64,000 nt of DNA from Pomacea canaliculata. Taxonomy: Eukaryota > Mollusca > Gastropoda > Architaenioglossa > Ampullariidae. The position numbers were made by a program, and so were the translations under genes. Location: assembly GCF_003073045.1 (NCBI RefSeq), contig NC_037595.1:9384345-9448344 (forward strand), given 5' to 3'. The stretch's first letter is position 1, and each line of letters starts with the position of its first letter. Of this stretch, positions 3,126 through 53,799 are shown in pieces. The notes under the pieces were generated by a model, which was given only the letters and a program-made list of their open reading frames with translations, was not told the DNA's origin and did no database searches.

Positions 3126-3219
3126 ACCCGTATTTTTTATAAGGGGATGTATTTTCTTTATTAAAAACCATGTAAAAAAATTAATGGATCAGACACCGTT
3201 ACATGAAAACGTAATACAC

Positions 3220-8085: not shown

Positions 8086-8741
8086 GTGAGCCCACTCTAC
8101 GACGCATATGTGACAAAAATGAACATCGTCGTTTTCATCATTGGTATAAATTTACTTGACAATAACAACAGTTATACTTTGATGTTTGATTTTTATATGC
8201 TCTTTGCTTCTTTCTTTCCTTGCTTCTTTCTTTCAATCATTTTTCATTCTTTTCATCTATTTTTTGGGTTATTTTCTTCCTTCTTTTTCTTTATTTTAAT
8301 CTTTATTTATGTCTCCTTCTCTCAATCTTTCTTCTTCTTTTTATTCTGTTTCTTCTTCCTTCCCATTCTTTAGCAACTTTTCAAGCTGTCTTCTAATAGA
8401 CATGAGCCTTGCATCCCCTGCAATATTCATTATTTGATGCCAGTTTCCATGGGTTGAAAATACACAAATACACATGATTTCTCAGGTCACCTACAATTAT
8501 TTCTTTTGAAAAATTATGAATTTTTGTTTTATTTTGTCTGATTGCTAATCCATGTATCTGGTGGACTTCAGGACAAAATCTTTCGGATGATTCTAGTATT
8601 TTACAGTTTTTCAAGATATCAGCGTAGCCTGAAAATGTGTTTCAGCGGTCTTGTGTAGCCCGGTTTTCTCACAGTATGGTTGTTTTCTCAACTACAGTAC
8701 AGCAGTTTACACTGTTGATATACCCGAAACTATTAAAGCTG
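8086..8741 (+). CDS. Copy 2 signal-peptide exons (8086-8143, 8646-8741)
   Basis: The acceptor TTTCAG at 8080-8085 opens an exon whose ATG at 8119 begins MNIVVFIIAVLCSPVFSQ. This matches copy 3 MKILVFILAALCRQVSSQ, with likely cleavage before the Gln of QYGC. An upstream ATG at 8108 is closed at once by TGA, so 8119 is the start. The second exon begins after TTTCAG at 8645; that acceptor keeps phase and aligns every residue with copy 3 through IPETIKAG. Confidence 0.8.
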
Positions 8742-17700: not shown

Positions 17701-20700
17701 ATTTTAAGGCAAATGCAAGCTGCAATTTATTTCAACACTACATACAACCTCCTCGGAATGTAATGATCTTTCAGTTTTATACATTTGTTGATCTTTCCCA
17801 GTTCATAAAACAATTAACAATAAAATATCTGCTTAGTAATCATCTACAGATCGCTGTGATATTTGATTGCATTTCATCCTTAAGGTTATAACATTCAGTC
17901 TCATGTTTTGTTTGTTTTGTTGTTGTTTTTTTTGTTTCAGATCCGTGCTAGTGATGCTGACGAAGGTGAAAACGCACATCTCAGTTACAAGTGTGTGTCT
18001 GTAGCAGACATGGATGGTTGTGGTGAGATTACTGTCAACAGTACAACTGGGGACATAAGGCTACGACAGCCTCTCACCAAATCACAAATGTATTTTGCAC
18101 TGGTTGAGGCGTGCGATAACCATGTTGATGTCTCACAAAGGTGAGTGAAAGTGCAGTGCAGCTGTTTTTTTATAATTAATTATCTTTTCATTAATTTTTA
18201 TTTCTTTGTTAGGGAATTAATTGCACCTCTCTGTGGCATAGTAATATGTAATTAAAAGTAATATAGTGAATCGTATAAAGAAACAAAGGCTGCGATTATG
18301 ACTCTCCTGAAATTGAGGAACATAGTCTTGCTTAGTGAAACACTTACTTTCTCGTTATCCTTGTTATACTGTACATTACTGAACTGTTACAGTCGCTGTA
18401 CTTCAGTTCCTATCAGAATCAGTCTGCCTCCTGATTTTGACCTCAACGTGACGTCATACAACTTCACGGTTCACGAGAATTTGCCGGCGGGGACGTACGT
18501 TGGCGACCTCTTGGTTTGTGTCAACAGCCTGTTACTAGTTTACATTTAGGGACAGTGCTTTCTTAATCATCTAGATAATTTTGTTTATAATTTTACACTA
18601 AACAACGCTCGCTTTACTTGCTACATCATAGCACCGTTAAACATTTGGGTGTTATAAGAATAAAGCTAATTACATTTCTTAATTATTTGACTGACCATAA
18701 TTTTCTGCGAATTTTTAACACACTTTACGGGCACTTACTGTCAAAAAAAATCGGAGACATGCGTTTTACAGAAGTTTCTGTGGCTCATTACTTCTGCAGT
18801 TTAATTCAGATGGCAAAATTGCTCACAATGTTACCGACTTGTCTTTTTACATGGGATTCTACTTCTAGTGAGATTCTATTAGTGAGATTACACATATATC
18901 AATCAAAGAGCTATGTAGTACGTTCTTATAGGGGATCAAGAAAGTTGTAGTGTAGTGCAGTCTAGTGAATAATAAGGAAAATACTATTACGTCAGTTGTG
19001 AAGACTAAATTTAAAATGGCATGAACTGAAGTCTTTCAATAAATATTTCTTTTGTTTCACAAGTAAGATTATGATAAAACAACTTTGGAGATTTCTCTTT
19101 TCAGGATTATGACAGTCACTTTGAGCTCCATCATGACAAATTTCAGCTCGATGAAGGGTAGAAAACATTGTATATTTAATAATTGTGCTTTCATTTAAAC
19201 TTCTAACTGCTACATCATGTATCAAGGTAGTTAGCAGCAGTAGCATTTTGCATTCATCATACTGCTCAGATTGAAGGGTGTCTACACAATTACGGAGGTT
19301 GAAAAAGTTAGAACTCTTTATTTTAATTGAAACTTTCATTCAATTCACCACTGAATGACTTTATTGAGATAACATCTCTACGATTGATGATGGACTGAAA
19401 GACGCAGTCTATGGTGAAAAAGACGAGCAGATAGTCCACGTGTCCAAGTGAGATCAAGTTATTTTTAGCCATCTATGAAATAATATAAACCTAAAGCTCG
19501 TCTTTTGATACTGTCTTATAAACTTGTGTTGCACAGAACTATCCGCACTAAAGTTTCATTGGACCGAGAGGCTCAAGACCAATACATGTCTGTCATCAAC
19601 ACCCACAACCAGGTACAAAATCACCCAGTCTAAAATCACTTTTATTCTGAAATTTATTGCCTACAGAACTTAAAATATGCAATATATATTTTAATATAAT
19701 AATAGTATAAATATATATTTATAGTTTGACTGTCGACGTGCCCTTTGTCTACACATTAAAAAGGGATACAAAGAAATGCAGCTATTTAAGGAATAAATGT
19801 AGACATAAGTATAACTGTTTACGCTTAGAAAAATAAACAGATTTAAGAAGTAAACAAGTGTCTTCTCGCTACAGAACAACACAAACATCTCAGTGCTGGT
19901 CACTGTCCTGGACGTCAACGATAACAGCCCTGTCTTTGATCGCTCCAACTACAGACTGACTGTGGTGGACAATACTCGTGACGCCCTCGTGCACAAGGTC
20001 AGGTCTTCTGTTTTGGCTTTTATGAATATACTACACTACTTGGCGCTCATGACGATAGTTATACCACAATGGATTCATAAAAGACTTCTACTCGCATCAC
20101 CATTTTAAATCGTTAAAAAAACATTGATAGTGAAGTTTCTTACAAGACACCTAGCAATACGTATAAAAATATAATGTTCTCTATCTTACTTTACTAAAAC
20201 AAAAAAAAAAACTCAGTTTGAATCTCACGTCCATGTATGTTTCAGGTCAATGCTAGCGATGCTGATGAAGGTGAGAATGCACGCCTCCAGTACAGATGCA
20301 TGCCTTCCTATGTCAGTAGTAGTAATGGCTGCAGTGTGTTCACTGTTAACAACTCAACTGGTGAAATAAGGTTGCAGCAGGAACTAACCAGTTTAGAAAT
20401 GTATTTGGTGCTAGTGGAGGCGTGTGATACTCCGACTGATACCTCACAAAGGTGAGTAAAAGGCGTTACGTCTGTTCTATGCTTATTTTGTAAGAAATTT
20501 CTTAACACAAGCATGTGTAAAACGTTTCTGTTTACAGTTTAGTGACGGGACACAACCCATTCAAATTCAAGTTAGTGACGGCAAGAATTATTGCTATCTT
20601 TAAAAAAGGATGAACATGTGTTGTTAATTTTTTCTTTCCACTCAAAATATCCAGATTATGTTGTTTTATAACTGTTTCCTATGTTCCTATGTATTGTATT

Positions 20701-23700
20701 AATTTGTTCCAGTCGCTGCACCACAGTTCCTGTCAGAATCAGTCTACTTCTCGATTTTGACCTCAGCGTGACGTCATATAACTTCACGGTTCACGAGAAT
20801 TTGCCGGCGGGGACGTACGTTGGAGACATCTTGGTTCGTGTAAACATCATGCTGATATTTTTATTGGCGTAAATATTTGTGTATAAGTCTATATCCGTAC
20901 AAAGAGTTTCTTTGTATTGTTCTTTGAAATGAGAAATAAAATTAAAACTAGGGAGCGTTGCTAATACATTTTCGAAAAAATCATTGATTGCTGTAGTTTA
21001 GTCTTGTGCTCATCTCTATATTCGGTATGAATCTTTGACCTCTGGACGTGCACTTACTTCCTCAAGACGTACGTATGTATCAACAGATTTGTGTTCTTCG
21101 TGTACTTCTGATTGTGTTATATATTTATTATCATATGAAACTGCAAGATGGGGATCCTAACTTTTCATTCAATATGCAGCTCAAGATTGCTGCAAAAGCG
21201 AGTGATGCACGGTGGAGTGGAATCAAGCCAATAGATACAAACATAATGAAGATATTTCTTTGGAAAAAAATTATTTTCTTCCATTTCAGTATTACGACCC
21301 TCACTTTGAGCTTCAAGATGACACGTTTGAGCTTAATGAGAGGTATTGTAGTTACACTAGTTAAACTACTTTCATTATTTGTAAAGGGAGTAGATTAAAG
21401 TAATGGACAGTAGTATTGTTTTTACACTCAGAAGATAACATCGCGTGTTTTCTCGATGACTGAGAGGCCGACAAATAATGTCATTGTAGATTTTAATATC
21501 TTGTCTGTCAAATGATGAAAGAGTCATGTATGGTCTGTTAACACTACTTTAATAACTTGTGTTGTTCAGAAACCTTCAAACATTAAAATCACTGGACCGA
21601 GAAATGCAAGACCAACACAAGTTTGTCATCAACACCAACGACCAGGTAACAAAGCCACCGTGTGTGTAATATGACTTGTTCCTAAAATCTTCATTGTTTT
21701 TTGTAAAAATACTATGCGACTAGCCATGCGATGTAGGTATTGTATTTTGCATCCCTTTATATGTTTAAAAGCCGTATAAGGAATATTTACGAGCGGGAAG
21801 AAAAATATAGACTTTACTAACACTCGTTAGCACATAGGGAACAATGTAGTATCACTAACATCTGTTAACACTCAATGACTAATCTAATGTAATAAGTAAT
21901 CTCGATACATAATTTAAAATTTTTAAGTTTGAAGAATTTAACACATCTTTCTCGCTATAGAACAACACAAACATCTCAGTCGTGGTCACTGTTCTGGACG
22001 TCAACGACAACAGCCCGGTCTTTAACAAGTCAAACTACAGACTGATTGTGGTGGACAACAATGAAAACACCTTCTTAGAGACAGTGAGGTTTTGTTTCTT
22101 TTGGTTTATGTGAATTTGTTTATTGTAATTTACATTCTTCATGCTAAATTTAACTAGCTTCTTGTCATGGTGTGTGTGTGCGTGTCCTCGAACATGTAGC
22201 CACACTGCTGTACATCTTTAATCATACCTGTGCTTAAGGTCGTCTACTTTGCTGTAAGCTCTACATGTAGAGAGAAATCTGAACACCGCTGCTCATAGCA
22301 TCGACTCATAACGTTCCAAAAAAGTCAAAATACTATAAAAGCACCTCAGTACAATTTACTTTTGATGCCTTGAAGTCCTCTTCAGTTTATATGTCCATAA
22401 GTAATGAAACATCTGATCAGTTTAGTACATACCTGGGATAATGTTTTCACTGGCAGTTTTGAACCCACATTCATTACAGTTAATTTCATTTGTGTTTCAG
22501 ATTAACGCTAGTGATGCTGACGAAGGTGAGAATGCAGTGCTCAGGTACAGGTGTGTGTCCTCTGTAACAAGCAATGATGCCTGTGATGTCATGACAGTCA
22601 ATGACACAACTGGGGAAACAAGGCTTCTACAGTCTCTGGTCAGTTCACACACGTATTACGCGCTGGTTGAAGCGTGTGACAGTCTCACTGACATCTCACA
22701 GAGGTGAGCGGAAGTGCGTCACGTTAATGTTTTGATGTCGGTTGCTGGGGATTGTACTGCAATTTCCTTCCCTAAACGAAATAGAATGTCAAATTATCAT
22801 ATAGCAAAACAAATTACTTAAGGTCAAGTAGTCAAGTAAATAATTTCTTGACCCAGCAACATGATCACAGGAAAAACTTAGATGTATCCAACAAGTGGTG
22901 GTGGTCGTGGTTGTGGTGGTGGTCGTGGTTGTATACTGGCATTGCAGAATGCTCCATTCTTAAGTGCTATATATCTGTTTTTCATATGAAGATGAAATTA
23001 CGTGACAATGAACAAATACCTGAAGCTGTTATATGTAAATATCAAAGAAAACGAGAGGACTGACTGTGCTGCCTTGTTTCACTGTAGACGCTGTACCACA
23101 GTACCTGTTAGTCTCCATCTTCCTTCAGCCTTCAACGTGACGTCATACAACTTCACGGTTCACGAGAATTTGCCGGCGGGGACGTACGTTGGCGACATCT
23201 TGGTTCGTGTCGTAACACTGAGTACTAATTTTAGTTTCAACACAATGGTCTTTATCTGTTCACTCTAATTTTGAACAATTACTTTGAATTTGGGTTTCAA
23301 ATACGAAATTAATTAACTTGCTGAGGCTTCGAAACCACAGAAAGCCTCACCGCCATGTAAAGTAGGTCTGTCTACAGAAAATACCTGATTTAGTATAATA
23401 CGTATAATAAGTTTCTGTGGCGAGTTAACTCTTCTGTCCGTGTTGTTAAAAAAATGAATGGCAACATAACAACAGCTAGTTTCTTCTTATTATGATTTCT
23501 CCTGCACGGATTTGATGTGTCTGTGTTAATCAGAACTTTGGTACAAAACGGTTATTTCAGCTTGTAAAGGATACTTGACACTCGTCAATTTCTATCATTC
23601 TTTTGTAAAATTCACTAATAAATGACAAAAGACGAGGCCCATTTACAAGTAAACACCTTTCATTTCACTTCAGTTATCTTTTTTTCTGATTGGTTATTTC

Positions 23701-26700
23701 AGAATCACGACGATCACTTTGTTCTTCAGCATGACAAGTTTGAACTTCATGACGGGTAATATTTTTAGTCGTATTTACTTAAATTAATTATACACCTTGT
23801 TTACAGTTAAGGGCGTGTACTTTAGTATTATGTTCTCTTCGGAAATTAAATCTCTTTTTTTTAATTATTCTTTTCCTTTCAATAACTGACAAGAGACTGA
23901 GAGACGCAGCCAGGCAGACACACGGGTAGTATTATAGACTCCTTAAAAGACTGACAGGGTAACACACACTTCAATTATTTAAATTAATTCTCAATAACAT
24001 TTGTACACAACATTGTAGGAGGATCGCTGGTGGTTGATTAATACTTTATAAACACGTGTTGTTTAGAACTCTCCGCACGAAGAAGCCTCTGGACAGAGAG
24101 GACCAGGATCATCACACTCTTGTCGTCAACACTAACAACCAGGTATACATGTCTCCCAGATAAAAAAAAATCTTTTTAAATGGTATGGCATGATTTATAA
24201 ATATATTATCCTAATTTAGACATCACATACACGAAGAACTTATTTTCATCCACATTAACAGACAGTTACAAAAAAGGCCATGCGATTATTTGAGGAAGAA
24301 ACGTGCACATTAGTATTTTGAATGTTGGTTATCAATTTCAAGCAAGTGTAAGATGCAAGTAAATCTTCTCTCGTTGCAGAACAACACGAATATTTCCGTC
24401 CTTGTCATTGTCCTGGACGTCAATGACAACAACCCCGTCTTCAAACCGAACGACGGATCTGTGACGTTGAGTGGGGAAGAGACGACTGGTCACGTGATCA
24501 CAGTTGTCAACGTGAGTTATGTCGATCAGATTTTTTGTTTATGTATATGAATGTATAAGTGTATGTATTCACTAGAAATATGTAGTCATCTTGCACTGTG
24601 TGACTAATGTGTTCTGTGACAACTTTTCTCTTGATGAATAACTCAAAATTCTCTCTTACATTATATATTCACCGTGTCAATCCTAACCCTCTATGGCAGG
24701 AGAAACTGCACGCCCTCCATAAAATGATATGATTATCTGTCGCAGGCCTCAGACGACGACGAAGGAGTCAATGCTGAAATGACCTACAGCTTACAGCCGG
24801 ACTCGTAAGTAACCCTGGAGGTAACGTTAGAGGTGAAATAAAAAACACGACAATGATTCGATGATGTGCAGACGATGAGGTTGATATTGAAGTACTGGGG
24901 TTTACACCAGCAGGGCATGATGTTTGTAAACCATTTACTATACATTTAATAATTATCTTCATGAACTGAAAACTGATGGCCATGCACAGGTTTATGTCAT
25001 TTGAACGTCTTTAAACAACGATGTGTAGACTCAAACATCAATTTTTTACCCACTGAAGAGCTATCAAAACTTTAAAACTCTTTTTTTTTTAAATTAGGCG
25101 TCTACTTCATAAATTTTTTTCTATACGCCATCTGAAAATTTTTGTATCGGGAAAACAAAATTTATTAGAATGCAGTTCTTTAAGTCTTCTACAAGTGCCA
25201 TTTATACAAAAAATTTGTTGAAATTTTTCATATTTTGCTTAATATTTGGTAAATAAGCATTTAGAAAGTTTACAAGAGACTAGATGTTATACACATTTTA
25301 AAATCACGATTTGCTGTCAGTTGTGTGCAGGAACTGAGTCAAAGCACTTTTAGAACTATGTCCCATGGTCCAGTTTAATTGTTTAAGTTGAGAGAAGCAG
25401 AACAGAAAATCCTCTTTTTCAAGTAGCTCACTCCAAAGACGCCTTTCAGAATGTTGCAGTACTTCTACATCAATGAGTCAGGGGCAGTAATTCTACAAAC
25501 ATTGTCAACCTTAGAGACGATGGACCTGCTGGTCAAGGCTTCAGATGGTGGTTCGCCATCGTTGTCCGGCTTCTACACACTCAGGGTAAGTGAACTGTCC
25601 TACACAGCTCCTGTACAGCAACTGTTTGTACTCCTTTGTAAACTGTTGCCTCGGCAGCCTGGTCACTAAATTGATGATGGATGATTGATTGATTGATTGA
25701 TGATGATGATGATTTATGACACATAACTAATAACTTCAGATAACTATCCCAGCAGTCAACAGAAACGTTGTCATTTTTGCACCAGTGACGAGCGACAAAC
25801 TAGCCGGAGAGAGAAAGATAATTGAGAGGTATGGACGTCACAAATAATTATTTTTTTGATGTTTTTTTATTCCTTTATTTTACTACCTTTACTGGGTAAA
25901 AAGCTTGAGCAATATCATGTAAAGTTAGTCCAGCCTCGTAAAGCTGTGCAAGAGACATTTCACGTTCAAAATATTCACGATCATCGTCAAATTCTTTAGT
26001 GTATCCTTAGCATGTCCTTCCTCTGACCGACCAATCTAAAACGAGTTCATGCTCAAGTAGTCAGTGGAAGTAGCGCCTTGTGTGGCCAAGTTAATGAGAT
26101 CCATCTAAACTATCAAAAGAAGAAAACCACCATACCCTGTTCTTGATAACAATATCAGGATTATAATACTTCATGAAGAGAGATTTCGAGAACTTTCGAG
26201 GTAAGACTTCTCTTGACTTGTATTTTATTTATATATGCTTATAATGCCTGCTAGAATCGTACCGACAATTTCTTTATAGAAATTTAAGTTTGAAATCTCA
26301 TTTCATTTGCTATGCAATGTTTGATTAACTGCGTTGATACAGACACTTATTTTGTGTGTCCATATTTTTTCAGTGAACTTATGCGAATCCTAGGTGCAAA
26401 TGTCACCGTTGAAACCGTTCGACAACATTCAGCTGACAGGTAAAGACATTTTTAGCTATAGTTACAATATCTATTCTACATGTACACTACAGAAGCGTTA
26501 AAAAATATTGTGAGTGGACATTTTAGAAAAGATACCGATTTTCTTATCATGAAGAAGGAGACGAAGTAGACGAAGACCTTAATCAGCTTATTTGTACGAA
26601 TAAACGTTTCATAACCTGTTTTCTCCTTTCTGAATTTTTAAAAGAAATTTTAAATAATTTTTATCCCGATTTCAATATTCTTTTAGCTAATATTGCATTG

Positions 26701-27660
26701 TTCTTTCATTGGTTGGTTACACACTGCGTGGTAGTCAAATTATCTCTGGTTTTATGACTTTGGTTTATCCGAACCCAATATTTAATAAAACCTTTTGTAC
26801 AAAATGTTCTCATTTCTAATGCTGTGCAGCTCAGCAATATACATCACTGCACGGGGCATGAGCACAGGTCAGCCACTAAAAGTTGAAGAACTTCAAAAGT
26901 AAGTCACCTGGACTGACGTCTGCTCACTGTTGTCAGATAATGAGCAGGACTGCTTAGCAATGCTTGCTCTTATTTAAAAAAATTAATGCATTTTAAAATT
27001 ATAAAGAAAGTAAAGGAAAATACTAACACGATTAACAGTATTTTCAATGCCTTGATCGTGTCGGTTTTCTTTTTTAGAAGCCACGATACAGAAAAATTAA
27101 AAATCATCTTGTAAAGTCTTCTTAGTAACAATGGGTTAAGTGGGATAAACGGAAAATGACTGTATTACAAATCTCACTGAAAATATTTACTTACAGATAA
27201 TTAAGTTCGAAACTTCAGATTTTAATATTATCAGCTGATTGCCTTTTTTATTTCACATATATATATATATGTAATATTAATATAGATATACGTAACATAA
27301 ATGCACGCAGATAGAAAGTAGAAAGATATTGTAGATTTTTATCAGGCATCATGTATCCATAGCTAAGCGTTCAATCTATTTTTAATTTATAATTTATTTT
27401 AAATTTTTTAATTTATTATAATTCTGCTTTGACTGTTTGCCGTATTTTTTGTGTCCGTTCCCAGGCTTGTAGACTCAAAGCCTGTAGAAATCGCTGACCT
27501 GTTTCGTCAGAACTTCCCTGATGACACCAGTAAGACAACTGCTGCAGACGACTTCACCACTCCAGTCACCATCGTCCTCATCTTGATTTCCGCCGTCCTC
27601 CTCGTTGTTCTTATCATTGCTGCGGTTGTCATGTCAAGGTCTCACAAGGCGTGCTGTTGA
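8119..27660 (+). CDS. Protocadherin-like gene, copy 2 (complete, tail-less)
   Basis: A cell-surface adhesion receptor of the cadherin superfamily, predicted at 1471 aa. Coding exons: 8119-8143, 8646-8741, 9177-9346, 9648-9713, 10746-10826, 11228-11335, 11796-11915, 12424-12546, 12927-13026, 13197-13297, 13804-13980, 14390-14542, 14795-14965, 15270-15475, 15711-15831, 16254-16306, 16781-16856, 17366-17488, 17941-18140, 18393-18513, 19105-19157, 19537-19612, 19875-19997, 20246-20451, 20713-20833, 21290-21342, 21570-21645, 21961-22083, 22501-22703, 23088-23202, 23703-23755, 24067-24142, 24380-24511, 24746-24804, 25450-25585, 25740-25828, 26374-26439, 26830-26898, 27465-27660. All phases agree, the total (4416 nt) is divisible by three, and no internal stop occurs, so it is not a pseudogene by sequence. 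Order: signal peptide, two degenerate and two ordinary cadherin repeats, four two-repeat cassettes, a final repeat, juxtamembrane domain, membrane helix near residues 1441-1463, and the end HKACC. Unlike copies 1 and 3 it has no cytoplasmic tail. Family placement as protocadherin-like is by repeat motifs only. Confidence 0.85.
9177..12546 (+). CDS. Copy 2 N-terminal degenerate cadherin repeats
   Basis: Exons 9177-9346, 9648-9713, 10746-10826, 11228-11335, 11796-11915 and 12424-12546 encode two divergent repeats. The first carries PETIKAG (the XEX-like strand), paired Cys (CHMSRYWAFNLVC) and YTDDYDP. The second carries YTDQDC, a SGEIVV strand and ends with DIDDNDPVF, a clear cadherin linker. 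Exons 4 and 5 of both copies keep YTDDYDPV exactly. These membrane-distal repeats would be the contact surface in a protocadherin (family knowledge); low similarity between copies here (they differ in length and in most residues) fits partner specificity, which is inference. Confidence 0.78.
10380..10412. repeat. CA/CT microsatellite
   Basis: Short mixed run of CA and CT dinucleotides inside an intron of copy 2. Confidence 0.85.
12424..14965 (+). CDS. Copy 2 two canonical cadherin repeats
   Basis: Exons 12424-12546, 12927-13026, 13197-13297, 13804-13980, 14390-14542 and 14795-14965 encode two ordinary repeats. The first has VQEEN, FDQDTGINDSV, MDRE and DDINDNRPKF; the second has IPEHSAFGS, LALDADEGDN, LDRE and LTDINDNSPVF. 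All classical calcium motifs are present. A Cys pair (GDCSTGMC) lies in the last exon and is kept in copy 3. Confidence 0.85.
13425..13700. repeat. Possible degenerate SINE in copy 2 intron
   Basis: A string TTCTTCGAGTACTCTGGTTT near 13437 resembles the shared core of many animal SINEs, and AGTTCGAGTCCC near 13568 resembles a pol III B box. The two are in an order that does not form one clean element, and no target duplication was found, so this is tentative. Confidence 0.25.
15270..17488 (+). CDS. Copy 2 cassette 1 (five exons, two cadherin repeats)
   Basis: Exons of 206, 121, 53, 76 and 123 nt. Repeat A (NASDADEGENA ... EACDSP) has DAD and ACD but no DRE and no DxNDN; it carries four Cys (YRC, DGC, EAC, RCT). 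Repeat B (YNFTVYENLPAGTYVGD ... LDREEQD ... VLDVNDNSPVF) has YEN, DRE and DVNDN but no DxD. The donor of the 121-nt exon is GTTCGTGT at 15832, unlike the usual GTRAGT. The following intron 16857-17365 holds nothing recognisable. Confidence 0.82.
17941..19997 (+). CDS. Copy 2 cassette 2
   Basis: Exons 17941-18140 (200 nt), 18393-18513, 19105-19157, 19537-19612 and 19875-19997, in the same phases as cassette 1. The A repeat begins IRASDADEGENA and is two codons shorter than in cassette 1; the B repeat has VHENLPAGTYVGD, LDREAQD and DVNDNSPVF. Nucleotide identity with cassettes 3 and 4 is highest across the 121-nt exon, where the segment coding FTVHENLPAG is the same in all three. Confidence 0.82.
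20246..22083 (+). CDS. Copy 2 cassette 3
   Basis: Exons 20246-20451, 20713-20833, 21290-21342, 21570-21645 and 21961-22083. The A repeat has NASDADEGENA, NNSTGEIRLQ and EACDTP; the B repeat has VHENLPAGTYVGD, LDREMQDQ and DVNDNSPVF. Structure and phase are as in cassette 1, supporting tandem copying of a block with introns included. Confidence 0.82.
22501..24511 (+). CDS. Copy 2 cassette 4 (terminal type)
   Basis: Exons 22501-22703, 23088-23202 (115 nt), 23703-23755, 24067-24142 and 24380-24511 (132 nt). This terminal cassette differs from the others by a shorter second exon and by a last exon that leads into the final cadherin repeat (VLDVNDNNPVF then SLSGEETTGHVITVVN-like sequence). Its direct counterpart is cassette 3 of copy 3 (43095-45123), with the same SSVTSNDAC segment. 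Confidence 0.82.
24746..25828 (+). CDS. Copy 2 final cadherin repeat
   Basis: Exons 24746-24804, 25450-25585 and 25740-25828 encode ASDDDEGVNAEMTYSL, a strand GAVILQTLSTLE, KASDGGSPSLSG and the linker to the juxtamembrane region (VVIFAPVTSDKLAG). It has DxD and the SDGG site but no DxNDN after it, as expected of the membrane-proximal repeat. The middle exon and flanks are nearly identical to 46088-46223. Confidence 0.82.
25681..25712. repeat. GATT/GATG microsatellite
   Basis: Tandem GATT units change into GATGAT units, inside the intron before exon 25740 of copy 2. The matching intron of copy 3 carries a related tract at 46523-46562. Confidence 0.8.
26374..26898 (+). CDS. Copy 2 juxtamembrane domain exons
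   Basis: Exons 26374-26439 and 26830-26898 encode ELMRILGANVTVETV and SAIYITARGMSTGQPL followed by KVEELQ. Together with the start of the next exon (VDSKPVEIADLF) this gives a beta-alpha-beta order with a variable-looking helix, reminiscent of the ferredoxin- or SEA-like fold next to the membrane in some large cadherins. That fold assignment is inference. All three gene copies keep this block. Confidence 0.72.
27465..27660 (+). CDS. Copy 2 last exon: membrane helix, then early stop
   Basis: The first 186 nt align without gaps to 863-1048 and 47960-48145. At the position where copies 1 and 3 splice (GT at 1049 and 48146), copy 2 still has GT at 27651 but with a changed context (GGC|GTGCTG instead of GAG|GTACTC). 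Read through, the frame ends MSRSHKACC and TGA. The two terminal Cys just inside the membrane could be palmitoylated (inference). Confidence 0.82.
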
Positions 27661-28530
27661 GACAGGCTCTGTTCCACTTTTAATGAAAACTACTGTTTTT
27701 AAAACTTACAATTACATTTTTGTGAATGAATCTTAAGCAGTTACGGCCGCTTCTATTTGTTGAAATTGTGAGATATGTTCATTTTTGATATTGCTTAGTA
27801 CTTTTTAAAAACATAGCTATTCCGTTTTATACACCAAATTTGTCCTCATCATTCGTCTTCCAGTCATTATATGTGTCCTGCACAGCTGTGTGTATGTGTT
27901 TGTGTGTGAGTTTGTGTTCGTGCTCTATGTAAAACTGGATGTGTGTTTTTACTCTCTAATTTAAGAGCAAAGAAAAGAGCTGTGTTCATGGAGGTGACAC
28001 CTGTGTTTCTGAGCTCTGTGAATGTTCTTGTATTTTATATAATTACTGTACTCGTGTTGCATAATTGTGAATCTACATTTCCTTGATGGGATTTGATATT
28101 CTGATTTACTGGATGTAATTTTTATGTCTTTTTGTGTGAAAATAGTCTTGGATTATCTAGTTTTTTTGCTGAACCCTCGACCTCGATCTCAGTGCACTGC
28201 AAGACTGCGCTGACCGCCTCCTCCCCTTCTACCCCTCCCCCGCTGTGTCAGAGGTGTGCTTTAGCACCTGCTATAATCTTCTATTTGTTTTGACTTTTTT
28301 CCATCCTTACCATGACCCATTTAGTAATCTTGTGTTCTTTCTAAGATTTTTCTGAATGATACAGCTCTCGTTATTCCTTACAAATAAAAATAAATTTGAC
28401 CTTCGTCTACTTGCTTGCATTTTTCTTATAATGATGATGCATAAGTTTTTTAAGGTCTGTTGTTAAATGAAACTCTTTACATTTCTTGTAACTTTATTAA
28501 TTACAGGGGACATTAAATAGATCATTAAGT
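27661..28530 (+). terminator. 3' flank of copy 2 with poly(A) signal; tail exon missing
   Basis: Up to about 27985 this follows the tail intron of copy 3 (48146-48450), ending in the AAGAGCAAAGAAAAGAGC block. Then similarity stops and unrelated sequence fills the place where the tail exon should be. An AATAAA lies at 28383-28388 and is a reasonable end for copy 2 mRNA. From about 28535 the sequence becomes the upstream part of the copy 3 unit. Confidence 0.55.
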
Positions 28531-29439
28531 TGAACAAGTCAGAGGACACTTTATTTATGACCAGCAGATGAAGACGCTCTGACAGTGCTCGTGACGGTGC
28601 CAGATGAGAGGTCAAGGCCGGCTGTCAAAACCATTAACCTATCAGTCGCTGCTAATTAATTAACACTAGAGGTTAGCAATGAATGGCTCTGCACAAGATG
28701 TAGTTTATAGCTGTTAACGACTTTCAGTCTAAAGCCATCAACGCTGGTGATTATTATCCGACTCTCCAATTTTATCTTCATTCTTACCCTGCCTTTAAGC
28801 TCCCAAAAGAACATTCAGTAATATAAACACATTAACGGTGTTCGACCATTCAAACTCAGTTTTTAATCAAATTCACAGATGGTTCTTCTTGCAGAGAACG
28901 TGGACACCTGTCAACGCTTTTGGATTATTATTTCAAGATATAACACTCTAATCTGTGCAACAAAGGTACATTAATACCATTAAAAAGAGTCGTTAATGAT
29001 ATTAGTCCATTTCTTCTACCCTTACCATCAACGCGGTATAAACTGGAGTTTCTAGGGCAGTATTACCGACACATTGCACAGGAAGGGACATGCTGATGAC
29101 TTCCGATCTACAAGACATCAAACCACCACACCACTCTTTTCATAAAAATATTATCAAAAAGTTAAAAGTCGTTCCCCTGCTTTTCGCGTCCCATGTTGTT
29201 TGACCAGTCTGTCCCCAGTAAGACAAAGTTTTTGCTCTCATGTGGAGAACGTGTGCCGGAACTTACAAATTAAATTTACCTGATTATTTGCATGGGAGGG
29301 TAGAGAGGGGAGATGTTCAACTGTGATTCTTGGAGTACTGGGACATTGTTCACCAGATCGTTCATTCCCAACAAGGAAGCTAAGACGACAGTAAAGAGAC
29401 AGTAAAGAAGATAATCAACAATAGCAGTGAGCTATTTCG

Positions 29440-29663
29440 GGTGTGGGTCGCCGTGACGTACCAGGAACAAGTAGATAATCGTGATCGACACCAGAGACAG
29501 ACAATACACTCGTTGTGCTATGCTGTAGGCTGGCGACGACAGGATGAGCCACTCATCCAGCTTTTCTGGACGGTTACAAGTAGAGAAGAAGAAACTATCT
29601 TAGCGTGATTTCAGGTGTGACGTTCGGTTTGTCTTAACGGACGTGTTTCGGGTGTGAAAACAG
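29440..29663 (+). promoter_or_regulatory. Putative first non-coding exon and promoter of copy 3
   Basis: Partner of 4640-4873 upstream of copy 2: conserved blocks around AGACAGACAAT, GGCTGGCGACGACAGGA and GTGTTTCGGGTGTG, ending at a donor ACAG|GTAAAA at 29664. A further donor-like GAG|GTAAGT lies at 29728. The start site cannot be placed. Confidence 0.35.
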
Positions 29664-29727
29664 GTAAAACCTTTCATACTTTCCTCGCAGATGTCGGGGG
29701 TAGATAGAGGTCGGCTATACTTGAGAG

Positions 29728-31315
29728 GTAAGTATAGTTTTATAGCTAAGCACACACAATTAACAGTTGAAGATTGGGCAATGGCCGATGATCCAGAGTT
29801 TGTGCAAGGCGATGTTCAAATGCTCGCTGTTTCTACATAAGCAAAATGTAAATTAATTTTAAAACGCTTGTTAGTGCATTCAGTTTTACTATTTATGTCA
29901 AGTGTATGTAATTTTTTTCAATAAAAACGTTTGGGTCAATAATATCAAATCAGTTCTGTGGACATTAAAGTCGCATTTTTTGTTTCTGTTCACTGCTGCT
30001 AAGTAAGTATATGCTGTCTGTTTTGAGATTTCCAATCGTCTGTCCATTATCTAATAAAGTCTTCATTTTTGAGTTAAGGTTTCTAAGAAAAGAACAAACA
30101 CAAAACATCACAAGATAAAGGTGAAAGGTTACTTCTTGCTAAAGTTGTATGCTATTTATTAATGCCACAATTTGTTAGCGAGAACCTTTATGGCCATTTA
30201 TGGTCAATGAGAACATTTTGCTTATGTAATGGAGGAAAATTATATGTGTGTATGTTGTGTGTATGTATTTGTGTGTGTGTGGGGGGGGGGATGTACAGTA
30301 GTAAAAGAGTTTTGGTTTACTAGTTCGCTTTATTCATAGAATAGCTGATACCTATGGTACACAAAGACAATGGCTACTACCTGCCTAAACGCAAACTTAC
30401 AGTGAGCTATTATGGGTTTAGTAAAGTGCTGCAAAAGAGTGCCCTGTATAAGTGATTTATTTCTGATCTGAAGTACTAGTCGCACTGTTGAAACAGACCT
30501 TAAAACCTTATCAGTAGACATGCAGAAATACAGCAGTCAGGCTGCTTTATTGATGGTGCACAAAAGTGAAGAGCTAAGCCACTGTCACATTTGATATTAT
30601 CTTAGGAACACATCAAGTACACATTATTTTACCTGTTTGATTATTTGTAATGATTGCGTCTCATCGCTGCTTTAACTTTATTACTTTCCTCTGTCTTGAA
30701 CTTTGACTTTCCAGCCACTCTCCATAAAAGTAAAGGCCGAAATATGTTAACCCACATACGTCACTGTGTCACAAGATATTACATTATCAAGAAACAGGGA
30801 TGGTTGGCTGGTTCGACCAGCGCATCCTAGCGGATAATTAATTAACGGATGGCTTTGGAGGCTGAAATTTACAGGTTTATGTCGCCTATAAAAAACAAAA
30901 ATAATTCACGAAGTCTTTAAGATACATAAACAGCGTCTTATATTTACTTCTGTACGCACACCGCAAAGAATATAAACTGAACTAGAACTTGTACACGTCA
31001 GATAACTAGCTTTTCAAAAACTTTTCATGGCAAGGCCAAAAGCAGCAAAACGGAGATCGTTTAATTTAAGTGCTAGACTTTATTTGGCATTGGCACAATG
31101 CAAGATGTTTTCCAAAGTAAGGGAACAGAACTTTTTAAAAAGAGACATAACAAATAGTTCGTCTATTTACTCTCATTAGAAACCTCCACCCTTCTGTCTT
31201 CCCACAGAACATTATCGAAGTCTGAGATAAACATAGAATAGAAACATTTTCCGCCCAGCTTTGATTCTGTTTTATTTATTCATGTTCTCCTTTGCTTTTG
31301 CTTTTATTGTTTCAG
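29728..31315. other. Leader intron / 5' flank of copy 3
   Basis: No coding exon is supported. The (TG)n tract with a run of nine G is near 30240-30290. The stretch 30121-30145 corresponds to the flanks of the transposon at 5253-6803 without the insertion. The region ends in an acceptor TTTCAG at 31310-31315 that opens the signal-peptide exon. Confidence 0.45.
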
Positions 31316-31804
31316 GGGGACTAAGTATTAAAATGGTGTGCATATGACAAAGGAAAAAATGAAGATTCTCGTTTTCATTTTAGGTAAAACGCGTTCCCAC
31401 TATTTATTTTTTACTTTCAACATCATCGTTATTATTTTAAGAAAAAAATTTTACTTCACCCCCACCACCACCACAATCGTCATTGTCATTATAATCAAGT
31501 CCAAACTTCTTTCATGCACTCACAAACATTCACTTTATTGTACTAATGCGTACACATAAACCAGTATATATGTACATCATATTGTATAAAGGTACTTTTG
31601 GGATTAGTTCAATTTTTTAAACTTTCAGTATAAAATATTCATGAAAAAATTCAAGAAAAATAGAAAACGTGTGTATTGTAAAAACAGCTGTCATGCATTT
31701 TATTTCAGCTGCATTGTGTAGGCAGGTCAGCTCCCAACATGGCTGCTTTCACGACTACAATAAACCAAATGAAGAGCATTACATACCCGAAAGGATTCAA
31801 GCTG
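31316..31804 (+). CDS. Copy 3 signal-peptide exons (31316-31383, 31709-31804)
   Basis: After the acceptor at 31315 a short leader precedes ATG at 31359 (MKILVFILAALC, then RQVSSQHGC), a good signal peptide with cleavage before QHGC. The second exon continues to IPERIQAG. Starting at 31344 adds MTKEK, which is also compatible with a signal peptide; copy 2 has a stop there, so 31359 is preferred. Confidence 0.8.
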
Positions 31805-34800
31805 GTGAGTGGGCAGCTAAATCTTGTTAATAATATATTTCTTAAACTCTCTACTCTTATAAGAATAGAAGTTGTCACACAACCACTTTAAATGTTTTGA
31901 TGATTAATAACTGCGTTTTTCTTCACAAAAATTCATCATAATGTAACGTGGTAATGTAAGCATCAGGATTTGAAAACACGATTCTACATGTCACAAAGAG
32001 TTCATGGAGAATAAAGAAGAGAAACACAAAACAAGGATAAGACACACAATATTCGAGAGTGGGCTAATCAGTCATTCAGTTGGTTTCAGAATGGTAAGAG
32101 ATGTAGGTAACATCATCAAATGCCCCTACTACCGAAGTTCAGAGTATAACGATTGAGGCATTGATTCTGTTCTATTACGTTCTCTTGTTCCTTTATTTTA
32201 AGACAAGCCTTTATTTTCCAAACATGATTGTCCATATCATCATCATCATTTAGCAGTATGTCTATGTTTTTATTCTGTATCGCTTGGAAGGATTGTTACA
32301 TTTACTATAAAAAGTACATTTAGTGCGCACCAGTGTTCATCATACCATGTGCAGCCGCCCTGAAGTAGATAAATTTCCATAAATGGCCAATAATCACTCA
32401 TAGATTTTTGTAGACATTTATCATTTGTAACATAATGTTAAAAATAACCTATCTTAAATAAACTAAGTATTAAACTCGTTTACAAATATGACACACCTCC
32501 ATGGCTTTTCAGAATTGTTCATACGTGGATCTGTGGTTATTTTGCTTTTTTTATTTTACAGGAAGCACTTTGCTAACAGTTTTCTCTCGCGAAAACATAA
32601 CTTTAAAAGAATCCCGTTACTTCACAATACCATTTTTCATTGAGCTCCATGCTGTGGCCCTGGTGGAACAGTTACATACTTTTTCCTTGGAAGCAGTGAC
32701 TGATGTGACACTTGATGGCAATGAGGTGAGTTTTGACTATAGTTGCTACAAACACAACTGAATTTGCGGAGTGCCATGTTTAAAGTTGTAAATTTAGAAG
32801 TCAGTTATTGAAACTTTTATTTTCTATTGTTCATCATAAGACCGGATTGACAGAATATTAAATATAAAATAAGACATATACATTAGTTAACAAGTTTACA
32901 AACTAATTTAAAGATTAAATTCAGTAACATTACGTTTTTCTTTGTAAATTCCAACCAAGCATAGAAATAAAATACTGAGCGCTATAAATGCAAGGGGTAA
33001 TAGCTATAAATTTAATAAATTTTCAAAGCTTTTATAAAGATTCATTTGGAAAATTTAGGGTTGTGATTTATTTAACAGAAAGTTACTTTAAGACCAAACT
33101 GGCATAAACTTATAGTACTATCTTCTGGGGGATATAGAGTGATCTAGATGAATTCTCACTTTGACTTGATCCCAGCTTAAGCATAAACATAATTTGTTCT
33201 CCTCTGTTCCTAGAGTTATTACTTTTTATATGCGTATTTATAGCTGTAAGTTAATTTTTTAATTAAAAACCAAGAACAATATTTCAGACCATGTGCAACG
33301 CTTCTAGATTTTGGGGCTTCATACTGGTCTGCCAGTCACAATCTGAGGTACGTGTTTCAAAATACTAAAGCTGTACACTCAGCTACTTTTTAGATGCAAA
33401 GTGAAAATAAAATTGATGATGAGGCTGCTATGTCTTAGTGTCATAAAATTTTATTTACAACTTAAAACTACAATTAACATTTTATTTTAGTATCACTTCA
33501 CTGAAGAGTATACGGACGAGAAGAATTTATGCTCTCTAAAACACTCTCCATTAAATTATATTTAATATGAGCATCGTATTTCTACGAGATACAAATATCT
33601 AGGCAATATATACAGAAATGCATAGGAGGAGATGGACTGGTAGATCATTATCTGGAAGTTGAGTGAGTGCTGCAAAAGGAAAGTACGAAGCTAAACTTAT
33701 TATAACGTGTTGCCAAAGGCTTAATAACTTTATAAGAACAAATACCACTAGATAATTTACAATTTCACCAGCATTTACCCCGTGTCATTGTTTTCTCGTA
33801 CCAGCTTGAAATCCAGTTAAAGATAAACTACACTGATGACTACGATCCCGTCCTGCGTACTAACCTCTCTTTTCAGACACTAGAGGTAAGTAGAGTGATC
33901 TGGTGTAAAAAGATAAGTTTATGTTTCTGTGTGTGTGTGTGTGTGTGTTACACATAATTCTCTCGATATGTTGAACTGTAATGATGTAACCCTGATGTTT
34001 CAGAAAGATAATATATTTTGAACAAAATAAGACTTCTGCCTATGTATTATTACTATTAGGGAAATCGTTTGCGTTTCTGATGTAATCCTTGAAATTCTCG
34101 AAAATAAAGCATTTAAAACGAGTGTTTGAGTGCATAGAAAATCTCTAAATTCTGAATATTTTCCATTTTGGTTTTTTCCCATCATCGATAAATAATAAAG
34201 ACCCCATAGAGAACGTTTTTCATGTAAAGTAAAATAGATAAAAAAAAAAAAACAATACAAGCAAATGAAAAGTCTATACAAAGAAAAAAATACAGTATCA
34301 TGTAATTTTTGTCTGCATGTATTAGAAAAATGGATGTGAAAATATTTCCTTCACGTAAAATAAAAAAAATCAAGTTCTGCCCTCCTACTCCTGTTTTCAG
34401 CTGGCACCAGTGAAGAATTTTGTCGCAGACCTGACAAACGTTTCAGGTGGATTTTACACAGACAGAGATTGTGCACCGACTGGAACACAAGCTTTCTATT
34501 TTATTCAGGTTTCTGGTCTCCATTTCCTTTGCGTTTAGATTATTTCTCATCTTTTCATGTAGAATTAAATTTACATTTAATCACTTGTTAATTTACAGAT
34601 TTACCATGCCATAACAATTTAAACTGCATTCAGATGTTCCGATATTATTTCATATTATTAACACAGTATTGTTTAATTTCAAATAACAGGGTTAGTGAAA
34701 TGCATGACTTGAAACATCGAAATCCCTCTTATGTTTCCTCCATTCTGTTTACATAAAGATGTGAACATTTCCTTTTGTTTATTACATGGATACTTCTAAT

Positions 34801-37800
34801 TAAGAGCCACATGTAGTGCATTTCAATGTTTAAAAGCGCGTATCAATTAATATTATGTGTGCATTTTCTGATTTTTCAAAAATATCTTTTAATTAATAAA
34901 ACCCAGTCATTTAAAATACATTATAAACGGATTAACCTCTCAATGTGTTGAAATTGAGCAGTTGTGTGTAGTTTCCTTTGCTGGGTAATTTGCTTTTACT
35001 TTAATTTGTTTACTGATGAAACCATCTGGCATCAAAACTGAGAACCGATATATGGGACACTTTATGAAGAAATTCACAAAACTGTTTGCATTTGTGTATT
35101 AATACTGATGCATAATCTTTTCTAACACGAAGTAAGGTAATGCCCGCTTTCCCTAGCATATTTTAAGATTGTATTTCTGAATTGTCATAATTTTTGAGAA
35201 CATGTAAAATGCATTTCTTACATATGTGATTGTTACTTATTGGAATACATGATTTTAGAAAGAACTGGTACATTAAATACAAATATGTTTAGGGAGGAAA
35301 TACAGATTCAGCATTTCAGATATCATTGGGCATCATCTCGGTGGGCAGATTCATTTCCTACCGACAGGAAACCAAATTTGAACTGAATGTGTCTGTTACA
35401 ACGGTAAGATTGCGTCCACTACAACTCCTCATAAACACAGCTGTTTTCATGATGCTGGTCTCTCCATAATTCATCTGATATACATACTTTTTCGTGTTTA
35501 ATTTCATATTTCCCTCATTTCTGTAGAAATGAGAAAAGTCATAAATCGTGTAAGGTAATTAAAAAATTAAGAATGCACGGACAAGTTAGAAAGAAGTTAT
35601 CCAATTGTAGATATAGGTCTTATTTTAATCTTACCGTTTTGTAGACAGACAAAAAAGTCCTATACTCTGGAAATTTTTCAGAGCGAAATTTTTGACAAAA
35701 GAATGACCAGTATACATCCTCAGTAATTTCAACCAACAGTATTCCTTTCAACTGATCAAAACTTTGATAAGATCTCACTAGTAAATATATTAAACTAATT
35801 TATTACTAATTGAATTATTATTTATTTAATACTATCGTGACTGTGCTAAACTTTTTAAATGATCTTGTTCTTGCATAAAATTTGTATATAATGGCTTTAG
35901 AAGCAATAGTTATTTAGTAAAATGGCTTTTTTAAAGAGACTTTACTTTATAAACATGTATCTATGAAAAATAAGGTGTTATTTAAAATATCAATGTGTTG
36001 GAATAATATGACTTCGTTGATGTGAAATAGTTTGGTGTGGAATAATATTTTTATGTTTTGACAGTATAGTGTAAACAGTGTAGACTCCCCTGGAAGACAG
36101 GGATCTACAATAGTTGTAGTCAACATCCTCGATATCGACGACAGTGACCCAGTTTTTGACAACCTAGAGTACACATTACACGTGCAAGAGGAGGTAAGCA
36201 GGCTGAAACAGAAAGTAGAGATGAACGTTTATGTCCTAATTATTTCGCATTTGTTTAGTATCTTGACTGGCTAGTTCGTGGAGGAGGGGAAAAGGAACTA
36301 ACAAAGCAACCGTAAGGACTATTCATCGCGAAGTGTCCTTCCACAGACTCAGATACATTGTTATATTTTATTTTCTTTATTTATTAATGTGTGCTGTGTA
36401 CCACCTTTAAGAGTTTTTCATCAAGTCCACAATCATTTTCTTGCATTTTATTATATTACTCTCGTTGGTGTTAAGTACTATAAAAAGTCATCAAGGCTAC
36501 AATGACTTAGAAATCATGTGCTTCATGGCTGTTTGGTTTTAAAAAGTACACTTCCTACAGAACTCTACTGCAATCAATGTGACACACCTCACCATTCCTC
36601 CAGTGTTCGCCTTCGACCAAGACACTGGGATCAACGATAACATCACATACTCCATCAACGGTAAGGCTTCCTGTTACTGTTTTCATTGATGGGCTAGAAT
36701 CATTCAAGAGGTATTTACTGATGTTTGTTTATGATGTTTCTTGTGGGAGGGATGGGGTTGTACGTGACCTTGTGCACTATTTCGTGTTTTCGTGATAATA
36801 TGTAGAAAAATGGATTCACGCAAGTAGATATTTCTACAGTGAAGCCTCATTTATTTACGACGTGCCACATTATAATTATAAATTATAAACCACTTAATTG
36901 TTATCGCTAGGTTCAAACTAGCCAGTTTCATGGTTACTCTTACTTTTTTTATTGCGTCAGGCCCTAGCGACGTTGTAGATATTCACAACGAAACCGGGCA
37001 GGTGTGGGTAACATGTGTACTGGACAGAGAAGTGAATCCCTATGTAAAAGTGGGTATTAAGGTAAGACTTCCAGAATACAGAAGCTTTTACTACAGTTGT
37101 TTTCTTTATCCGTTTACTGAAATTTTGCTTCAGTGGACAGCAAATCGAATATCGTATTATAAGGGAAGACAACCATGGGCATCAATTTTATGAGAGTTGG
37201 TTTGTTTTATTTGGTCTTACTATCCCGTACGGGTATGGTAGGTTCAAATAGTCCCAGTATTACATTTATGTAACAAATATGAACTGTTAATGATGAAGAC
37301 AAAGTCTGTCCACATAAAAAATCGCCTTTTAAAACAGGACAATGCTTGTATGTGTTAGGGGAAATTAAAGAGAACTTTTTAGTCAAGTGAAGATGGCAAG
37401 CAGAGTAAATTTATAACATAAAATTATAATTTCATTATCACAAACCTACAGTCATTTTTGTGCTCCAGATCACTTTTATCATCCTCAGGCTAACCAGGTG
37501 CACAACTCTTGGAGGTCGGCGGTGGCCACTCTCCTAGTGGTGGTAGACGACATCAACGACAACCGCCCAAAGTTTCAGCCAGACAATCCCACTCTCGTCA
37601 GAATTCCAGAACATTCTGCTTTCGGCTCGTCCGTTGTTCGAGTTTTAGCCCTTGATGAAGACGTGGTGAGATTACACATCGTTTATCACCTTTCTGTCTA
37701 AGGGTTGTCTTTTCTTTGAAGCTGCTGACATTAAAAATAAATCACTACACCTAATCTCTCACAATATTCGAAGCTGTAGAATAGTGAAAAAGATGAAAAC

Positions 37801-37965
37801 ATTTTCAGGGAGTTAAAAATGTTTGCTTTGAATTCTAATCCTGCTCTCTTCCTCGATGTTCGCTTTTATTGACCAAACCATTCATCCACTTGTCAATTTA
37901 GATAATAACTAAGCTATTGACTCAATTAGAGATATTAGCTTTAGTAATCTTTTATCCACATTTCG

Positions 37966-38060
<95 letters not shown>

Positions 38061-46518: not shown

Positions 46519-46549
<31 letters not shown>

Positions 46550-53792: not shown

Positions 53793-53799
53793 ATTAGTT

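Follow-up and report, generated by a model that had tools for sequence, protein, structure and literature searches.

A tandem cadherin copy in Pomacea canaliculata that probably lost its cytoplasmic tail

A 64,000-nucleotide stretch of the Pomacea canaliculata genome (contig NC_037595.1, positions 9,384,345 to 9,448,344, forward strand; referred to here as the window) contains three cadherin genes in tandem on the + strand, the first of which is represented by its 3' end only. The tail exons of copies 1 and 3 encode 356 and 352 amino acids, respectively, and both terminate in a conserved, class I PDZ-ligand-like ITSF. The locus raises the question whether copy 2, the middle gene, encodes a tail-less cadherin, borrows the tail of its neighbor, or is decaying. 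Our data suggest that copy 2 functions autonomously as an intact gene, and that the cadherin it encodes has permanently lost its cytoplasmic tail, a reading that we give a probability of approximately 0.75 from the sequence at hand. Such an array would be a natural experiment in which one long cadherin exists both with and without its tail, and adhesion and intracellular coupling could be compared within one animal.

Table 1. Coordinates of features in and around the cadherin array (positions in the window)
Feature	Positions	Strand	Description
Copy 1, 3' end only	252-2514	+	Exons J 252-320, K 863-1048, tail 1446-2514
Copy 2 gene	8119-27660	+	Tail-less frame of 1457 aa in 38 coding exons, from the signal peptide to the stop codon
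Copy 2 first coding exon	8119-8143	+	MNIVVFII..., signal peptide start; located by aligning the sequences upstream of copies 2 and 3
Copy 2 terminal coding part	27465-27660	+	Transmembrane exon K (27465-27650), whose frame continues across the former donor into TGA 27658-27660
Relic of former 5' splice site	27651-27656	+	GGC/GTGCTG, weak, score -4.02
Former intron, presumably 3'UTR now	27661-27980	+	Similar to copy 1 and copy 3 introns
Block with no detectable relation to copies 1 and 3	27985-28535	+	Replaces approximately 2.3 kb of copy 1 (tail intron end, tail exon, 3'UTR)
Two adjacent AATAAA, possible poly(A) signals	28383-28394	+	Not above chance
Intergenic homology with region downstream of copy 1 (3678-4491)	28536-29298	+	Right limit of replaced block
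Copy 3 gene	31359-49565	+	1609 aa in 34 coding exons, with K at 47960-48145 and the tail at 48509-49565

Gene models and membership in the cadherin superfamily

The exon models are homology-based, with copy 2 modeled on copy 3, and the donors of the B exons are uncertain. In these models the ectodomain reading frame of copy 2 is complete and conserved, with no internal stop and no frameshift over its 38 exons. Copy 2 belongs to the cadherin superfamily, as it matches Pfam Cadherin (PF00028) in nine stretches with 248 bits (E 6.7e-75; cut-off 28.8), and copy 3 without its tail matches in 10 stretches with 201.8 bits.

The first coding exon of copy 2 has its counterpart at 31359-31383 in copy 3, and the two starts are 80% identical by blastn (8115-8149 against 31355-31389, E 0.004). 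The regions upstream of the two genes are also alike, with an alignment score of 230 that carries no shuffle control, and blastn recovers this likeness in short pieces, two of them near the gene (E 3e-4 and 0.004). From these alignments, copies 2 and 3 each seem to have their own upstream region, and copy 2 would thus have its own 5' region.

The 3' end of copy 2 and the sequence that follows it

Exon K, which encodes the transmembrane helix, is 186 nt long in all three copies. The original prediction held that it aligns without gaps; the equal length stands, while the absence of gaps does not, since copy 2 carries two offsetting 3-nt indels. When forced into an ungapped alignment, copies 1 and 2 are identical at 140 of 186 positions, with 12/20 and 10/20 in the blocks at exon positions 61-100. 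The helix itself is kept in copy 2 (best 21-residue hydrophobicity mean of 3.49 vs 3.47 and 3.51). Read past the old exon end, the frame gives SRSHKACC and then a stop codon that ends 10 nt beyond it, which agrees with the HKACC terminus that had been foreseen. The cytoplasmic stub is therefore eight residues long, basic, and ends in a double cysteine. This CC end is at most suggestive: its S-acylation is possible, and a putative role as a decoy or lipid-anchored form is likewise possible.

We found that the GT of the former donor is still present at 27651-27652, as had been noted. However, the persistence of this dinucleotide does not mean that the donor persists, which corrects a tempting reading of this site. 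The site (GGC/GTGCTG) scores -4.02, compared to +0.62 for the tail donors of copies 1 and 3 (GAG/GTACTC), and is equalled or exceeded by 1563 of the 3902 GTs in the window. It falls below every one of 61 reference donors, all of which were taken from copies 2 and 3 and begin with GT. Adding seven doubtful B-exon donors leaves it below 65 of 68, in a set that held one misplaced junction (exon J). The GT thus scores like background, and to say that copy 2 keeps an in-frame donor was an overstatement.

Similarity to the tail introns continues past the former donor to approximately 27985 and then gives way to unrelated sequence; here local alignments and shuffle controls bear out the original prediction. 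The segment 27654-27955 aligns with copy 1 (1052-1389) with a score of 200, and 27660-27980 aligns with copy 3 (48155-48458) with a score of 127; in each case the shuffle maximum was 52 and 0/60 shuffles reached the score. At this sensitivity, the block that follows shows no relation to 1440-3677 of copy 1 (score 47, reached by 2/60 shuffles, maximum 53) or to 48480-50900 of copy 3 (score 34, reached by 42/60 shuffles). The copy 1 score comes from 28420-28517 against the 3'UTR of copy 1 (2737-2835), a near-margin candidate for a relic of the tail region that we did not accept. A tblastn search with both tails returned 0 matches in 27651-31300, and across the whole window it returned the two known tails only. 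Beyond the block, the sequence again matches what follows copy 1, with 90% identity over 28536-28586 and 66% over 28597-29010 (score 308, 0/60 shuffles).

We infer that the exon beginning at 27465 is now the terminal exon and that the former intron and the replacement block form the 3'UTR of copy 2, probably ending near 28400. The two AATAAA motifs were rejected as positive evidence for this 3' end, since 1.1 are expected in 27669-28535 and the probability of at least one is 0.68; between donor and tail stop, copies 1 and 3 contain neither AATAAA nor ATTAAA. A transposon origin of the block was also rejected: the repeats listed (seven direct families and four inverted pairs) include no terminal repeats flanking it, Rfam at gathering thresholds gives 0 matches in 27400-31400, and similarities elsewhere in the window are weak (among the best 10, top E 0.002).

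Taken together, the 1457-residue frame, the helix, the constrained ectodomain exons, the early stop and the lack of a tail up to 31300 support the tail-less form that had been proposed. Loss of the tail in copy 2 is tentatively preferred over gain in copies 1 and 3, as judged within this array.

Selective constraint and competing explanations

Between copies 2 and 3, dN/dS is 0.33 (bootstrap 0.27-0.39; 973 aligned codons). This speaks against a pseudogene of long standing, although a pairwise value does not place the constraint before or after tail loss. A different matter is recent silencing, in which a deletion removed the tail exon and 3'UTR and the remainder is too young to have degraded. 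The 3' half of copy 2 is indeed young relative to copy 3 (dS 0.17-0.25 in exons A4-J), where gene conversion may have homogenised the exons. Exon K also carries an excess of nonsynonymous changes on the copy 2 branch: private changes number 16 nonsynonymous and 4 synonymous in copy 2 compared to 6 and 13 in copies 1 and 3 (Fisher P 0.0036), a count that is sensitive to the placement of the two indels. Pairwise dN/dS for this exon is 0.63 between copies 2 and 1 and 0.45 between copies 2 and 3, against 0.18 between copies 1 and 3, with a bootstrap interval for the 0.45 (0.20-1.05) too wide to inform. Exon K thus appears accelerated in copy 2, as would be expected if hydrophobicity alone still matters there, and early decay could be an alternative cause. 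Against decay of the gene, the 38 exons are free of stops and frameshifts and every reference donor in copies 2 and 3 (61/61) begins with GT. Furthermore, in exons A4-J, which lie beside the membrane (335 codons), dN/dS is 0.27 (0.19-0.42), and just 2/1000 bootstraps are at or above 0.5, the minimum that we inferred for a neutral copy 2 branch. We therefore consider recent silencing unlikely, while it is the strongest of the rivals to an autonomous tail-less gene.

A second group of explanations concerns splicing. Three GTs, at 27530 within exon K (GTAAGA, copy-2-specific, score 2.58) and at 27994 and 28254 in the supposed 3'UTR (3.75 and 4.55), far outscore the one at 27651, and the end of copy 2 may be spliced in some other way. 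Copy 2 could use another local exon, or the GT at 27530 could skip the helix, giving a differently tailed or secreted form. Four acceptor-like sites, at 27966, 28193, 28810 and 30474, are each followed by 40-54 open codons when the reading phase is that of the 27651 donor; however, short stretches of this kind are presumed to be at chance level, and nothing in 27651-31300 resembles the tails of copies 1 or 3. The GTs at 27994 and 28254 lie downstream of the stop codon, while the one at 27530 is absent from copies 1 and 3 and no acceptor was identified for it. On balance, we regard such splicing as improbable.

An assembly artefact at this 3' end is more doubtful still: paralogous sequence flanks the replaced block on both sides, a setting prone to misjoins, but the copies differ by approximately 23-29% in the longer alignments nearby, too much for easy collapse, and the stop and the decayed donor lie well upstream of the block, continuous with exon K.

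The original prediction also raised the option that exon K of copy 2 is spliced to the copy 3 tail exon some 20.9 kb downstream, in the manner of clustered protocadherin constant exons. Its arithmetic is sound, as joining 27650 to 48509 keeps the phase and forms Ala (GC + A) over a distance of 48509 - 27651 = 20858 nt, and splicing of variable cassettes of several exons to a common constant part has a precedent in chelicerate sDscam, as described in PMC4835542. Nevertheless, we consider tail borrowing very unlikely because of the poor donor, which is not credible below 61/61 reference donors, and the need to skip all other coding exons of copy 3, ten of them phase-compatible and ahead of its tail exon; in addition, copies 1 and 3 own one tail each and copies 2 and 3 appear to carry separate upstream regions.

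Comparison with known cadherin systems

As a permanently tail-less cadherin, the copy 2 product would be a type I membrane protein consisting of the ectodomain, the helix and the eight-residue stub. It is predicted to still join cadherin contacts without recruiting the tail partners of copies 1 and 3, particularly those reached via ITSF, and would serve either as a passive partner in adhesion or as a competitor of its tailed sisters.

Comparable tail loss is already known in vertebrate protocadherins. The Pcdh-beta genes are tandem paralogues that lack the constant cytoplasmic domain of their relatives; they are independent genes whose products carry a helix and a short juxtamembrane segment, and copy 2 resembles them in ending at SRSHKACC with no tail up to 31300. 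PMC7811963 gives two proposals for their origin, one being that splicing to the constant exon was lost, and leaves the route open. Copy 2 offers a parallel in a differently built locus: Pcdh-beta genes have a single exon and six EC repeats, whereas copy 2 has 38 exons and nine Pfam Cadherin stretches, and their relatives share a constant exon, whereas the tailed sisters of copy 2 own one tail exon each. Among the literature matches listed (open-licence papers, by title and the start of the abstract), none reports a tail-less member of a tandem cadherin array in an invertebrate.

The clustered protocadherins alpha and gamma likewise form tandem cadherin arrays, with a promoter for each copy; the apparent own upstream regions of copies 2 and 3, which are alike, are at most candidates for such promoters. 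They differ in splicing their copies to one constant set, while by sequence copies 1 and 3 have their own tails and copy 2 lacks a credible donor. They also differ in encoding ectodomain and helix in one large variable exon, compared to 38 coding exons in copy 2 and 34 in copy 3.

T-cadherin (CDH13) is a GPI-anchored cadherin that has no cytoplasmic domain. In contrast, the hydrophobic helix is retained in copy 2, and basic residues come after it. GPI anchoring is thus not the simplest reading, and the order of helix and then SRSHKACC argues for a transmembrane anchor.

A further, more speculative view is that the ancestral gene made both tailed and tail-less proteins by regulated retention of the tail intron, and that copy 2 fixed the tail-less product. 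A choice between isoforms would thereby have been divided among separate genes, and in copy 2 a new lipid anchor made of two cysteines would stand in for the tail. This view, which we hold to be rather unlikely, derives from two observations: copies 1 and 3 themselves have a weak tail donor (scores this low occur in just 8 of the 61 reference donors), and read-through of their tail introns would give short ends of 17 (copy 1) and 26 (copy 3) residues past the last lysine of exon K.

PCDH15 and CDHR2 (PCDH24) are non-classical cadherins that have a domain next to the membrane, and copy 2 shares a long ectodomain with them. Neither name occurs among the 26 PDB matches listed for the membrane-proximal part of copy 2. 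This part weakly matches Pfam PCDH15_12th (PF23206; E 0.0059 with the full protein and 0.00056 with the fragment), scoring 17-20 bits in copy 2 (fragment 20.3) and 13.7 in copy 3, all under the cut-off of 27.

The 3′ end of copy 2

We found three tandem cadherin genes in the window, all on the plus strand (copies 1, 2 and 3, in that order); such intron-rich cadherin genes point to animal DNA. The first exon of copy 2 (MNIVVFII) came to light only when its upstream region was aligned with that of copy 3, and the gene models contain four of the repeated A-to-E exon units in copy 2 and three in copy 3.

Positions of the cadherin genes, selected exons and the near-invariant intronic stretch
Feature	Position	Strand	Remarks
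Copy 1, exon J	252-320	+	3′ end of gene only; cut by left edge of window
Copy 1, exon K (transmembrane)	863-1048	+	
Copy 1, tail exon	1446-2514	+	
Copy 2, complete	8119-27660	+	38 coding exons, 1457 residues
Copy 2, exon K	27465-27650	+	membrane-proximal stretch and helix
Copy 3, complete	31359-49565	+	34 coding exons, 1609 residues, no internal stop
57 nt after exon J, copy 1	321-377		
57 nt after exon J, copy 2	26899-26955		
57 nt after exon J, copy 3	47368-47424		

In copy 2, Pfam's Cadherin family scored 248 bits over 9 stretches and its FAT4-like cadherin domain 120.9 bits over 4 stretches; no Pfam family matched the copy 3 tail. PCDH15_12th scored 17.0 bits (full protein) and 20.3 bits (fragment) on the membrane-proximal part of copy 2 and 13.7 bits on that of copy 3, none of which reaches the curated cut-off of 27 bits. 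PMC8691648 describes how CDHR2-type proteins are organized.

The original prediction held that the last 186 nt of copy 2 before the old donor align without gaps to copies 1 and 3. This exon is indeed equally long in each copy, but in our alignments copy 2 carries two 3-nt indels that cancel each other out, so the match is not gap-free. As predicted, similarity continues into the intron past the old donor, to approximately 27955 against copy 1 and 27980 against copy 3 (0 of 60 shuffles attained either score), and apparently unrelated sequence then stands in place of the tail exon. No relation of this block, 27985-28535, to the copy 1 and 3 tails or 3′UTRs was detected (alignment scores attained by 2/60 and 42/60 shuffles), and a window-wide tblastn search with the tails returned two, one in copy 1 and one in copy 3, and none for copy 2. 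Sequence homologous to that downstream of copy 1 restarts at 28536 (28536-28586 against 3678-3728, 90%) and again from 28597, so that copy 2 has approximately 0.55 kb for approximately 2.3 kb of copy-1-like arrangement. The expected read-through end, HKACC, was also recovered: the frame GCG TGC TGT TGA ends in Ala-Cys-Cys, the last residue at 27657.

Copies 1 and 3 have a conserved tail (dN/dS between them 0.39, 346 codons). Both tails end in DEHDPNTNEEEEITSF, which copy 2 lacks and which we take to be compatible with a class I PDZ ligand. Parsimony favors loss of the tail in copy 2 over its gain in copies 1 and 3.

The former donor and tail borrowing

Copy 2 was proposed to keep an in-frame donor. 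The GT is present at 27651, but the site reads GGC|GTGCTG against GAG|GTACTC in copies 1 and 3. We scored it with a matrix of 61 donors from copies 2 and 3, omitting exon K, seven doubtful B exons and the copy 2 first exon. This matrix gives +0.62 for copies 1 and 3 and -4.02 for copy 2. The latter value lies below all 61 reference donors (leave-one-out minimum -1.98) and is equaled or exceeded by 1563 of the 3902 GTs in the window; with the seven B exons retained, it falls below 65 of 68. The 27651 GT is a leftover of common descent and does not speak for use of the site. In copies 1 and 3 this donor is also weak (8/61 reference donors score as low), and retention of their tail intron (1049-1445; 48146-48508) is predicted to give short tails. 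Three more GTs between 27465 and 28400 exceed a score of 1, of which 27994 (3.75) and 28254 (4.55) lie 3′ of the copy 2 stop codon. The third, a fair donor-like GTAAGA at 27530 (2.58), occurs upstream of the helix in copy 2 only and would make a secreted form possible if an acceptor exists.

Splicing of copy 2 to the copy 3 tail exon is unlikely, since the donor is of background quality and all other copy 3 coding exons would have to be skipped. Eleven copy 3 exons are phase-compatible with copy 2 exon K; ten of them, starting with the one at 39434, precede the tail exon. According to PMC7811963, clustered protocadherins have a promoter for each variable exon, and all variable exons splice to a single set of constant exons further downstream, a geometry unlike that of copies 1-3. 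Cassettes of several exons that share a constant part do occur in chelicerate sDscam genes, according to PMC4835542.

The product of copy 2 and its constraint

The exon starting at 27465 is most likely now the terminal exon of copy 2, with a 3′UTR most likely formed by the former intron and the replacement block. AATAAA occurs at 28383 and 28389, which is no proof of a terminal exon since chance alone predicts 1.1 in 27669-28535; in copies 1 and 3, the stretch from the donor to the stop of the tail contains neither AATAAA nor ATTAAA. The product would support adhesion and would not couple to tail partners. Speculatively, the two Cys that immediately follow the basic stub may be S-acylated.

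Copy 2 is predicted to work like the Pcdh-beta group, described in PMC7811963 as independent genes with a helix and short stub that lack the common cytoplasmic domain and possibly arose by loss of splicing to the constant exon. Membership of copy 2 in Pcdh-beta is ruled out by its different exon structure and repeat number. PMC6339937 reports no evidence for vertebrate delta1-type cytoplasmic motifs in octopus protocadherins, a separate matter from the missing copy 2 tail.

Copy 2 is open across all 38 exons. Compared pairwise with copy 3 over 973 aligned codons, it has a dN/dS of 0.33 (bootstrap 0.27-0.39), a value that omits 13 copy 2 exons (C1-E1, units 2 and 3) and copy 3 C1-E2 because the pairing of repeat units is ambiguous. 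For the near-membrane exons A4-J it is 0.27 (335 codons; 0.19-0.42), with 2 of 1000 bootstraps at 0.5 or above; exons F-J give 0.27 (0.14-0.49) and exon K 0.45 (0.20-1.05). Private nonsynonymous/synonymous changes in exon K number 16/4 in copy 2, 2/4 in copy 1 and 4/9 in copy 3 (copy 2 versus copies 1 and 3, Fisher P 0.0036), and helix hydrophobicity is 3.49 in copy 2 and 3.47 and 3.51 in its sisters. In our reading of the exon K changes, the helix now serves as an anchor only and its sequence is less constrained; alternatively, they could be a first sign of decay.

Homogenization and other sequence features

Between copies 2 and 3, dS is approximately 1.0 (e1-e6 and A1-B1) and 0.64 (e7-e12) in the 5′ exons, 0.17-0.25 in A4-J and 0.38 in K; the 3′ part (22501-27650 against 43095-48145) is closer than the 5′ exons. 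From these sequences, it looks as if the 3′ parts were homogenized by gene conversion or recombination, which blurs dating.

The intron that follows exon J opens with 57 nt that are near-invariant in the three copies (0-2 differences per pair), while the first 57 nt of eight other introns differ between copies 2 and 3 at 7-45 positions (gap-free count), which suggests a conserved intronic element. The palindrome TGACGTCA occurs in six of the seven copy 2 and copy 3 B exons (15767, 18449, 20769, 23138, 39484, 41329) and four more times in the two tail exons, out of 12 in the window; an 80-nt stretch of the B exons is common to some units at 97-99% identity. On the minus strand, open frames at 51644-53855 encode a protein rich in Thr, Ser and Asn that likely has a transmembrane segment, with a short cytoplasmic end, and an open frame at 61425-61688 resembles a piece of a Nudix hydrolase.
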